Source: Pseudomonas putida
GTDB taxonomy: Bacteria; Pseudomonadota; Gammaproteobacteria; Pseudomonadales; Pseudomonadaceae
Direction: 5' to 3'
Assembly: GCF_025905425.1 (NCBI RefSeq)
Contig: NZ_CP109603.1
Coordinates: 4,232,501 to 4,296,500 of the forward strand
DNA length: 64,000 bases
The notes below the pieces were generated by a model. It did no database searches and was not told where the DNA came from. It saw only the letters and a list, made by a program, of their open reading frames with translations. Positions 34,679 to 36,012 of the stretch are shown in pieces (position 1 is the first letter of the stretch; each line of letters opens with the position of its first letter). Position numbers and translations under genes: made by a program.

Positions 34679-34701
34679 CCCTTTCGCGGGGCAAGCCCGC
34701 T
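34679..34701 (+). repeat. Left part of the REP arm split by the IS110 element
   Basis: CCCTTTCGCGGGGCAAGCCC plus GCT is the first part of a REP. It stops at the CT core (34700-34701), where the insertion sequence begins. The missing CCCACA resumes at 35945 on the other side of the element. Confidence 0.88.
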
Positions 34702-34737
34702 TGTGTCTTGGAGAGGGAATAGAATCTGAAGTGAGAG

Positions 34738-34890
34738 CGGTGAATGGCAAGCTGATAGCCCGAGGTGCCCAGAGCACGTGTGGGAGCAAAAGCTGCCATT
34801 CACCGTTCCACTTTGGCGAGAGCCCGAACAGTTGGATGAGGGGCGTAATCTCGAATCACAAGCGTGGGCCAAGCCAAAGCGCTCTCACTC
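34738..34890 (+). ncRNA. Bridge RNA of the IS110 element (target and donor loops)
   Basis: Target loop: a 15-bp stem with one bulged A (34738-34753 with 34791-34805) closes a loop. In it AGCCCG (34757-34762) equals the target left of the core, and TGTGGGAGC (34779-34787) is complementary to G-CT-CCCACA. Donor loop: CTTTGGC (34811-34817) pairs with GCCAAAG (34873-34879) and encloses two guides. ACAGTTG (34828-34834) equals the last seven bases of the element, and CACAAG (34857-34862) is complementary to CT plus the first four bases of the element (TGTG). Order and guide polarity match the bridge RNA described for IS621. The 5' and 3' ends of the RNA are approximate. Confidence 0.85.
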
Positions 34891-34913
34891 CTTGAGTTTA
34901 AGAGGGTTTGGCC

Positions 34914-35849
34914 ATGTCTTCCTCTGTCGGCATCGATGTTTCCAGTGCCACACTTGCTGTTCACATCCGTCCTGAGGGGGTGAACTTCAGTGTTTCCAAT
35001 GACTTGAAGGGATTCCAACTGCTCGTCGAAAAGCTTGGCGAGTATGCAATTTCAATGGTCTTGCTCGAAGCTACCGGTGGCTACGAGTGCAATGTCCTCA
35101 AAGCGCTGCAGGATGCCGATTTTCCGGTTTGCCGGATCAATCCCAGTCGTGCCCGGGACTTTGCCAAGTCGATGGGTAAACGCGCCAAGACCGATCCCAT
35201 TGACGCAGCTGTTTTGGCTCACCTGGCTGAAGTTATGCCCCCACGGCCTTGCCAGGTGATGACACCCGAGCGGGCTTTGCTGCGCGAACTGCTTATGCAG
35301 CGGGATCGCTTCGTCCAACAGCGCGACGATGACAAGCGGCGCCTGAAGCAGGCGCGGGCTCCCAGTGTTTGTTTGCGGTTGGAACAACACATCGCCTATC
35401 TGAAGGGTGAAATTCGAGCGCTGGAACAAGAGATCGCACAGCAGGCAGCAGCTTTGCCTGATGATCGGGTTAAACAGCTCACTCAAGTCAAAGGAATTGG
35501 TCTGATTACTGCCGGAAAGCTGATGGCCTTGCTGCCAGAGCTGGGCCAGGTGGATAAGAAGGAAATTGCCGCCTTGGTCGGTGTTGCGCCGTTCAACCAG
35601 GACAGCGGCAAGCAGTCGGGCAAGCGTTCAATCTGGGGGGGACGCTCACAAGTCAGGCGGGCGCTCTATATGGCCTGCTGGGTGGTGATACGGCACAACA
35701 AGGACTTCTGCGAGCGCTACAAAGCACTGCGAGCCCAGGGGAAGTGCGCGAAAGTATCGGTGGTGGCGTGTATGCGAGTATTGATAGTGAGGCTAAATGC
35801 GATGCTCAAGACCGGAACGCCCTGGAAGGAGCAAATAGCTCATTCGTAG
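34914..35849 (+). CDS. IS110-family transposase (bridge-RNA-guided recombinase)
   Basis: The 311-aa enzyme has the RuvC-like DEDD acidic residues at Asp8 (GIDVS), Glu52 (LLEATGGYE), Asp94 and Asp97 (KTDPIDA), a helical middle section (residues 110-185), and the C-terminal Transposase_20 domain with QVKGIGLITAGKL and the serine-bearing FNQDSGKQSGKR. ATG 34914 has AGAGGG 7 nt upstream; a TTG at 34908 is too close to that site. It appears complete, so the element may be active. Confidence 0.95.
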   Translation: MSSSVGIDVSSATLAVHIRPEGVNFSVSNDLKGFQLLVEKLGEYAISMVLLEATGGYECNVLKALQDADFPVCRINPSRARDFAKSMGKRAKTDPIDAAVLAHLAEVMPPRPCQVMTPERALLRELLMQRDRFVQQRDDDKRRLKQARAPSVCLRLEQHIAYLKGEIRALEQEIAQQAAALPDDRVKQLTQVKGIGLITAGKLMALLPELGQVDKKEIAALVGVAPFNQDSGKQSGKRSIWGGRSQVRRALYMACWVVIRHNKDFCERYKALRAQGKCAKVSVVACMRVLIVRLNAMLKTGTPWKEQIAHS

Positions 35850-35930
35850 GAGCAAGCCTTGCTGGCGATGCCCGGCACAGCCGGGCCTGGGGCGCTACGC
35901 GCCCCATCGCCGGCAAGGCCAGCTTCCACA
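35848..35930. repeat. REP-like inverted pair inside the right end of the IS
   Basis: GTAGGAGCAAGCCTTGCTGG and CATCGCCGGCAAGGCCAGCT (then TCCAC) are inverted relative to each other around two small GC hairpins. This is a different REP class from the one the IS sits in. It lies between the transposase stop and the right end, inside the boundary set by the donor guide. Confidence 0.75.
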
Positions 35931-35942
35931 AGAAGACAGTTG

Positions 35943-36012
35943 CTCCCACAAGAACACTGTCGCCGGTTTGTGCGGCGCTTTTCTGTGGGAGCGGGCTTGC
36001 CCCGCGAAAGGG
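35943..36012. repeat. Right part of the split REP plus its intact inverted partner
   Basis: CTCCCACA completes the REP begun at 34679. After a 34-nt spacer comes the intact opposite copy (TGTGGGAGCGGGCTTGCCCC then GCGAAAGGG), ending 12 nt before the roxR stop. The two arms are perfect inverses once the IS is removed. Confidence 0.9.

Follow-up and report, generated by a model that had tools for sequence, protein, structure and literature searches.

Introduction

Bridge RNAs have been described for IS621 and for many other IS110 elements (PMC11208160). In Pseudomonas putida KT2440, insertion of the IS110 elements ISPpu9 and ISPpu10 into REP sequences has been reported since 2006 (PMC1525189), and the REP-targeting ISPpu10 is one of six with a predicted bridge RNA in Extended Data Fig. 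10c of PMC11208160. Here we describe an element in a 64,000-nucleotide stretch of a P. putida genome (the window; contig NZ_CP109603.1, positions 4,232,501 to 4,296,500) that an earlier reading of the letters, hereafter the original prediction, had taken for a REP-programmed IS110 bridge RNA recombinase. Guide–target covariation, a conserved fold, and exact ends and target all support that reading, and we put at about 0.93 the probability that the element is autonomous, belongs to the IS110 group and encodes an IS621-type bridge RNA in its left end. The exact ends, the target, the orthologous empty site, the fold, the covariation and the handshake complementarity described below are read directly from the DNA.

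IS621 of E. coli, as described in PMC11208160 and PMC11208158, resembles the window element in having a recombinase with DEDD and serine residues and a left-end bridge RNA in which a target-binding loop precedes a donor-binding loop. In both elements the 5′ side of each loop is like the top strand and the 3′ side is complementary to it, and both have a CT core, handshake guides and a REP target. IS621 differs in its REP and its guides and is only distantly related in its recombinase (E = 1.2e-27); its RNA, as described there, starts with a 5′ stem-loop, whereas the RNA predicted here is closed by an outer stem.

ISPpu10 is like the window element in its family, its occurrence in Pseudomonas and its REP target, and also in its 2-bp duplication and its insertion between REP bases 9 and 10, as given in PMC1525189. 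Since a bridge RNA has already been predicted for ISPpu10, the present element is an unusually well documented addition to the known bridge RNA elements. The REP half used by ISPpu10 is presumably a different variant, AAACCCG-CT-CCTAC, and on that assumption the two elements are probably siblings and not identical. ISPpu9 belongs to the same family and inserts at the same point of the REP. It differs, according to the text of PMC8450116, in its AG duplication, as read beside the 5′ end of tnp, where the window element has CT, and in the region upstream of the start codon, whose length works out from the methods text as about 328 nt (84 + 244), compared with 212 nt here. These two differences set the window element apart from ISPpu9. 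A plasmid collection searched for the identity of ISPpu9 and ISPpu10 gave no DNA match and no protein match of at least 60% identity.

ISPpu9 also has two small RNAs: Ssr9, which lies between copies of the element ends, is complementary to Asr9 and has orphan copies outside REPs, and Asr9, an antisense of the left-end RNA of ISPpu9 (PMC8450116, in the parts that treat these RNAs). Ssr9 might act as a further bridge RNA, directed at a different target, and Asr9 might be a bridge RNA antisense. In the seekRNA systems of IS1111 and IS110, the target is set by an RNA from a non-coding region, as we propose for the window element; in the IS1111 members described in PMC11187229, that RNA lies downstream of tnp, whereas here it would lie in the left end.

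Element boundaries and genomic copies

The element occupies positions 34702–35942 of the window, on the forward strand like all features given below, and is 1241 bp long. A DNA search of the whole genome found 27 intact copies of this length with the same ends. To its left lie the REP half AGCCCG (34694–34699), outside the element, and one copy of the CT core (34700–34701); to its right lie the second CT (35943–35944) and the right target half CCCACA (35945–35950). CT is present on both flanks of all 27 copies. The left half is AGCCCG in 26 of them and AACCCG in the other (L027), a one-base deviation that makes a G·T wobble at −5, and the right half is CCCACA in 26 and CCCACC in one (L023), an A to C change at +6. 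Only 13 of the 1241 positions vary among the 27 copies, a single one of which falls in the left end, and no copy differs in its target guides; the near-identity of so many copies points to recent activity of the element.

A search with the joined flanks located the orthologous locus of a relative (G009), which is uninterrupted and holds a single CT within the REP variant AGCCAG-CT-CCCACA. Together, the paired CT of the 27 copies and the single CT of this empty site define a scarless insertion with a short core at the insertion point.

The right end (35850–35942, 93 nt) contains a REP-like palindrome (35846–35930; GTAGGAGCAAGCC...GGCAAGGCCAGC) that belongs to a different REP class. Five shorter matches in the same genome (L030–L034) cover the second half of this palindrome, which is present too in the elements of P. 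hunanensis and P. putida W15Oct28 and was not seen in the right-end tails inspected from G156, G010 and G121. At two further loci, near 1364800 (L028) and 4541500 (L029), the last bases of the right end, GGCCAGCTTCCACAAGAAGACAGTTG, are followed by CT-CCCAC without an element. These may be scars of lost copies, left for example by recombination between the REP of the left flank and the REP-like stretch of the right end. Right ends also vary among relatives. In one G267 copy (L182) the right CT is followed by TGTGGCGC where CCCAC would stand, perhaps because the end was rearranged or recombined, and in G018 (L124–L126) the right end reads ACAGTTGG-CT, with one G more than in most relatives, as it does in G369 (L191); the exchange point in G018 may be a 3-bp GCT core.

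The recombinase gene

The gene at 34914–35849 encodes a DEDD/Ser recombinase of 311 aa, and a TTG start is possible in frame at 34908. A domain scan from 34908 returned PF01548 (3.6e-21) and PF02371 (4.1e-17), so that the features of the IS110 family, a RuvC-like DEDD domain (PF01548), a Tnp domain (PF02371) and a catalytic serine, are present. The frame is open in every one of the 27 copies, and all of them keep D8, E52, D94, D97 and S231, whose motifs align with D11, E60, D102, D105 and S241 of IS621; the original prediction of intact DEDD residues is thus confirmed across the whole set. In the protein search, several copies in G010 and G156 (including L037 and L038) appear with one TGA inside the matched transposase frame, although a script found open frames of 309 codons.

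Two PDB sequences matched the protein, IS621 (1.2e-27) and ISCro4 (1e-29), and no others did. These matches speak against the idea that the locus is an IS1111-group or other DEDD element with its guide RNA elsewhere, as does the asymmetry of the noncoding ends: the left end is 212 nt and the right end 93 nt, and the guide words and the conserved fold lie in the left end, as in the IS110 group. We regard that assignment as very unlikely.

The predicted bridge RNA

The predicted bridge RNA is about 160 nt long (34730–34888). A covariance model (R1) scores it at 171 bits, with this sequence included in the build, and at gathering scores Rfam gave no matches in the window. The consensus fold has three parts: an outer stem in which 34732–34737 pairs with 34882–34887, a target-binding hairpin (34739–34804) and a donor-binding hairpin (34811–34879). 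The outer stem, which was absent from the original prediction, encloses both loops and has no pair changed on both sides, and the target hairpin has a 13-pair helix with compensatory change in 5 pairs. The guides sit in the two internal loops, except for a possible CCC/GGG pairing between the target guides and two pairs in the donor loop.

In the target loop, AGCCCG (34757–34762) repeats the left target half and TGTGGGAG (34779–34786) is the complement of CT-CCCACA; in the donor loop, ACAGTTG (34828–34834) matches the final 7 bases of the element (35936–35942) exactly and CACAAG (34857–34862) is the complement of CT-TGTG. Both loops thus match their DNA in the polarity of IS621. All four words lie exactly where the original prediction had placed them. 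It had extended the right target guide by the C at 34787, a role that is possible for this base; alternatively, the C is a handshake base that would pair with donor G7. Under the latter assignment, the handshake guide of the target loop is CA (34787–34788), complementary to donor T6-G7, and that of the donor loop is CG (34863–34864), complementary to target C6-G7.

Chance does not readily account for these words. When the letters of the left end were shuffled 200,000 times, single motifs arose at rates of 0.7–5.6% and all four together never; multiplying the four rates gives about 3e-7, or about 1e-8 if the motifs must also stand in the required order. REPs are very common in this genome (674 exact AGCCCGCTCCCACA sites) and the right end does hold a REP-like palindrome, so the REP-like words of the left end could in principle be captured or chance REP sequence with no function. 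Such an origin is hardly credible, given the odds of about 1e-8, the covariation described below and the layout itself, in which two guides face each other in opposite senses across one internal loop, unlike a REP.

The fold is more stable than that of dinucleotide shuffles, with z = −4.0 for 34702–34912 (equalled by 1 of 200 shuffles) and z = −5.7 for 34730–34892 (by 0 of 200). Its conservation, on which the original prediction depended, was assessed with RNAalifold in an alignment of 11 left ends (the window element and ten relatives; 168 columns, starting at 34730), which gave the consensus of outer stem, target hairpin and donor hairpin. Standard pairs fill 97.7% of pair cells and 9 of 43 pairs are changed on both sides, values that were each reached in 0 of 500 shuffles; one of the five measures, the number of further pair types, was not above the shuffles (486 of 500 reach it). 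When partners were slid by 1–3 columns, just 31–47% of cells paired. The consensus from this alignment has no 5′ stem-loop ahead of the two loops and has the outer stem instead; because PMC11208160 reports diverse bridge RNA structures in the family, we treat this as variation within the family.

A second AGCCCG stands at 34821–34826, just 5′ of the donor guide. We read it as stem rather than guide, because the consensus fold places it in a stem and because GCCCG is kept at this position in 10 of the 11 aligned sequences while their targets differ. In G337 the second copy reads AGCCAG, which is the target of that element.

These features are consistent with a model in which the target-binding loop (AGCCCG/TGTGGGAG) would pair with the two REP strands around the CT core and the donor-binding loop (ACAGTTG/CACAAG) with the joined ends of the element around the same CT. 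An excised circle would join ACAGTTG-CT-TGTG, the RNA would bridge this donor and the REP, and the DEDD/Ser recombinase would exchange strands at CT, so that insertion would lose no target bases and add one CT. The hexamer TAGAAT (34720–34725) is a possible −10 element; the full promoter would exist only in the excised circle, where TTG (35940–35942), CT and T (34702) would form a −35 TTGCTT at a spacing of 17. This promoter is weak (8 of 12 consensus positions) and would place the RNA start close to the outer stem; among 14 relatives, judged by the two best matches per element, the same form occurs only in G156. We infer the circle intermediate, transcription from the joined ends, RNA binding by the recombinase and its catalysis from IS621.

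Guide–target covariation among relatives

The original prediction expected copies to lie at sites that match their guides. In the genome of the window this is the case for 26 of 27 copies on each side, but the REP itself could explain it. Exact AGCCCGCTCCCACA sites number 674 in this genome compared with 9 that have another base at −6, and A stands at −6 in all 47 exact GCCCGCTCCCACA sites of 21 sampled stretches (20 of 20 kb each and the window). Because nearly all counted REPs carry the same bases, conservation within the genome cannot by itself separate a guide from recognition of the REP, and a test therefore needs relatives with other targets.

Protein contacts might recognise the REP itself, by its sequence or its hairpin, with the structured left end serving only as a leader for transposase translation, a role proposed for ISPpu9 before the discovery of bridge RNAs. 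The left flank is REP-like in 25 of the 27 copies, and the long structured 5′-UTR of ISPpu9 affects translation, as PMC8450116 reports. The remaining two copies differ. One (L026) is inserted in the diverged REP of a REP pair. The other (L023) has flanks without a recognisable REP feature; it has AGCCCG-CT-CCCAC in common with other sites and keeps AGCCCGCTCCCAC, or 13 guide-matched bases, which speaks against recognition of the REP as such and suggests that the guide-matched bases may suffice without a REP hairpin.

Sixteen sets of copies, chosen mostly for at least 3 copies, were taken from among the 73 genomes, of 199, that had a protein match, and two Pseudomonas clades were delimited from multiple copies and model matches. 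Among 24 row types, those that shared a target and had similar guides were merged, as were G158 and G201, to give 22 families with 16 different six-base targets, the window's own family included. With a wobble counted as half, the left guide agrees with its own target at 5.57 of 6 positions, compared with 3.09 for shuffled guide–target pairings, none of which reached the observed value in 100,000; this shuffle controls the pairing of guides and targets, not the choice of families or registers. The result holds within clade A (14 families; 5.39 compared with 4.37, 0 of 100,000) and within clade B (8 families; 5.88 compared with 3.81, 3 of 100,000), whose guide registers were set by eye beside conserved motifs. 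Each target was read in a single copy or a few, and the families, being related by descent, are not independent samples.

Several choices define this set. We dropped G079, where no k-mer was common to the four copies fetched and one ended at a contig end, and a 39%-identity set of G188, whose ends were not resolved. G127, with 4 readable left-target bases, was left out of the left-guide set, the guide of G397 was entered with a one-base shift, G126 was added, and P. hunanensis was entered by its commoner site. Not entered were the L043-type sites (one C short, 3.5), L039 (3.5, or 3 if shifted), L183 (5.5) and L186 (5), so that two of the omitted types fit badly.

The two clades share a layout while their sequences differ. 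Clade A has the donor ACAGTTG-CT-TGTG, with ACAGTTGG-CT in G018 and G369, whereas clade B has donors such as ACGGTAT-CT-TGTAT and targets quite different from those of clade A, for example AGTACGCC-CT-AC (G113) and TGTCCGCC-CT-AC (G041), each of which recurs at the position of the left guide. By eye, the left donor guides ACAGTTG, ACGGTAT, ACAGTAT and AGAGTAT each go with a donor end of the same sequence. The right target guide also changes with its target (7 of 8 bases each), with GTAGGAG facing CTCCTAC in G127 and G369 and AGGAAG facing CTTCCT in P. massiliensis. The sharpest case is P. putida W15Oct28, which differs from the window element at 2 of the first 150 left-end bases, after which its contig has a scaffold join marked by N. 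One of these differences lies in the guide (AGCCCG to AACCCG), and the REP of this element, GTGAACCCG-CT, is changed to match.

Exceptions to the match are of several kinds. In P. hunanensis, 4 of 5 copies lie in AACCCG against the guide AGCCCG, a G·T wobble (the left flank was readable in 5 of 10 copies fetched), and the same wobble occurs in one copy of G313 (L171). In G188 and in one copy from P. palleroniana, the CT is preceded by AAGCCC, which lacks one C relative to the guide, and a truncated element in G117 (L039) fits its site in neither register. The guide is mismatched at −6 in the G121, G201 and G018A types, where the working left guide may be five bases. All three copies in G165 lie in AGCCCC, although the guide reads GCCCG and the genome offers 18 exact AGCCCG sites, which gives a G:G mismatch at −1. 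By position, the natural mismatches are thus G·T at −5, U·G at −4 and G:G at −1.

The insertion of the G165 element into its host's commonest counted REP, against its own guide, is what recognition of the REP by protein would predict. That explanation is nevertheless very unlikely overall, because the bases of the left guide vary with the target at corresponding positions across the 22 families and because eight clade B families combine very different targets with the same layout. A leader function may coexist with a guide role. With these exceptions, the guides follow their targets, and programming by a bridge RNA is the reading that we retain.

Handshake guides

In IS621, bases adjoining the right guides pair with position 7 of the other DNA, as described in PMC11208158. 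Among 17 families entered here, the corresponding base of the target loop is complementary to donor position 7 in all 17 and that of the donor loop to target position 7 in 15, and the second handshake bases pair in 12 and 9 of the 17, respectively. Eight further clade A elements were added (P. hunanensis, G127, G156, G165, G369, L189, L183 and L186). Donor position 7 pairs in all eight, seven by script and L189 by eye, and target position 7 in seven, with G165 failing. All clade A elements examined have C as the donor-loop base, which fails where an examined clade A target has C at position 7, namely in the GCCCC group, P. massiliensis and G165. Because of this constancy, the support from the donor-loop handshake comes from the contrast of clade A with clade B, and, with two states each for donor position 7 and the donor-loop base, the handshake counts reflect mainly that one difference. 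The G337 target carries A at position 6, which is C in the other clade A targets entered, and U takes the place of G as the handshake base.

Guides and host REP sequences

We counted the REP variants AGCCCG, AGCCCC and AACCCG before CTCCCAC in 16 genomes, of which 15 could be judged. In the remaining one, P. massiliensis (G202), the counted variants are nearly absent and the occupied site alone was seen. At −5 to −1, the guide is identical to the commonest of the counted REP variants in 11 of the 15 (G000, G199, G158, G201, G188, G121, G046, G179, G175, G203 and G018). In W15Oct28 (G199), AACCCG outnumbers AGCCCG by 157 to 127, and in G018 AATTCG accounts for 36 of the 50 sites that head a list of 193. 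Guide and REP differ by a wobble in three genomes (G156, G010 and P. hunanensis, G200) and by a real mismatch in one, G165, where the guide reads GCCCG and AGCCCC sites number 343 compared with 18 AGCCCG sites. Several of these genomes carry near-identical elements, so the host counts are not independent, and they are limited to the named variants.

One model for these counts is that the target guide follows the host, being retuned base by base to the commonest local REP, with a wobble or a single mismatch allowing entry first; we hold the chances of this model to be even. Under it, P. hunanensis and G165 would be caught before the guide adapts, and each host would offer hundreds of harmless landing sites. 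We found no work announcing that bridge RNA guides follow species-specific REPs among the papers that our literature search listed, and this is weak evidence of absence. The element provides a readable natural bridge RNA in 27 copies within one genome, with relatives whose guides differ by single bases, and hence a data set on natural mismatch tolerance and on the evolutionary retargeting of a programmable recombinase.

Further IS110 matches

A covariance-model search of 398 Pseudomonas genomes, scoring at most 7 candidates per genome, gave matches in 39, among them many short multi-copy matches and one tandem pair, and 20 matched regions were fetched and inspected. Twelve short matches (L197, L199–L201, L203–L206 and L210–L213) and a poorer full-length one (L198) break off no more than about 55 bases from a contig end; L208 ends 144 bases from one, and L202 and L207 start no more than 9 bases into a contig. 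We rejected these as orphan bridge RNAs and take them as assemblies broken at repeated elements. The tandem pair (L177) was likewise rejected, as it spans a scaffold join marked by N. In four interior matches (L209, L214, L215 and L216), no IS110 frame was noticed among the five longest reading frames, and we take them as probable decayed remnants. Across the 398 genomes and the 20 regions fetched, no mobile element consisting of a bridge RNA only was demonstrated.

A second IS110 family occurs in G188 (L127–L130); its protein is 39% identical to that of the window element, 7 copies are listed, and its left end is different. Its left end contains ACGGTTG, which matches CACGGTTG at its right end as provisionally placed.
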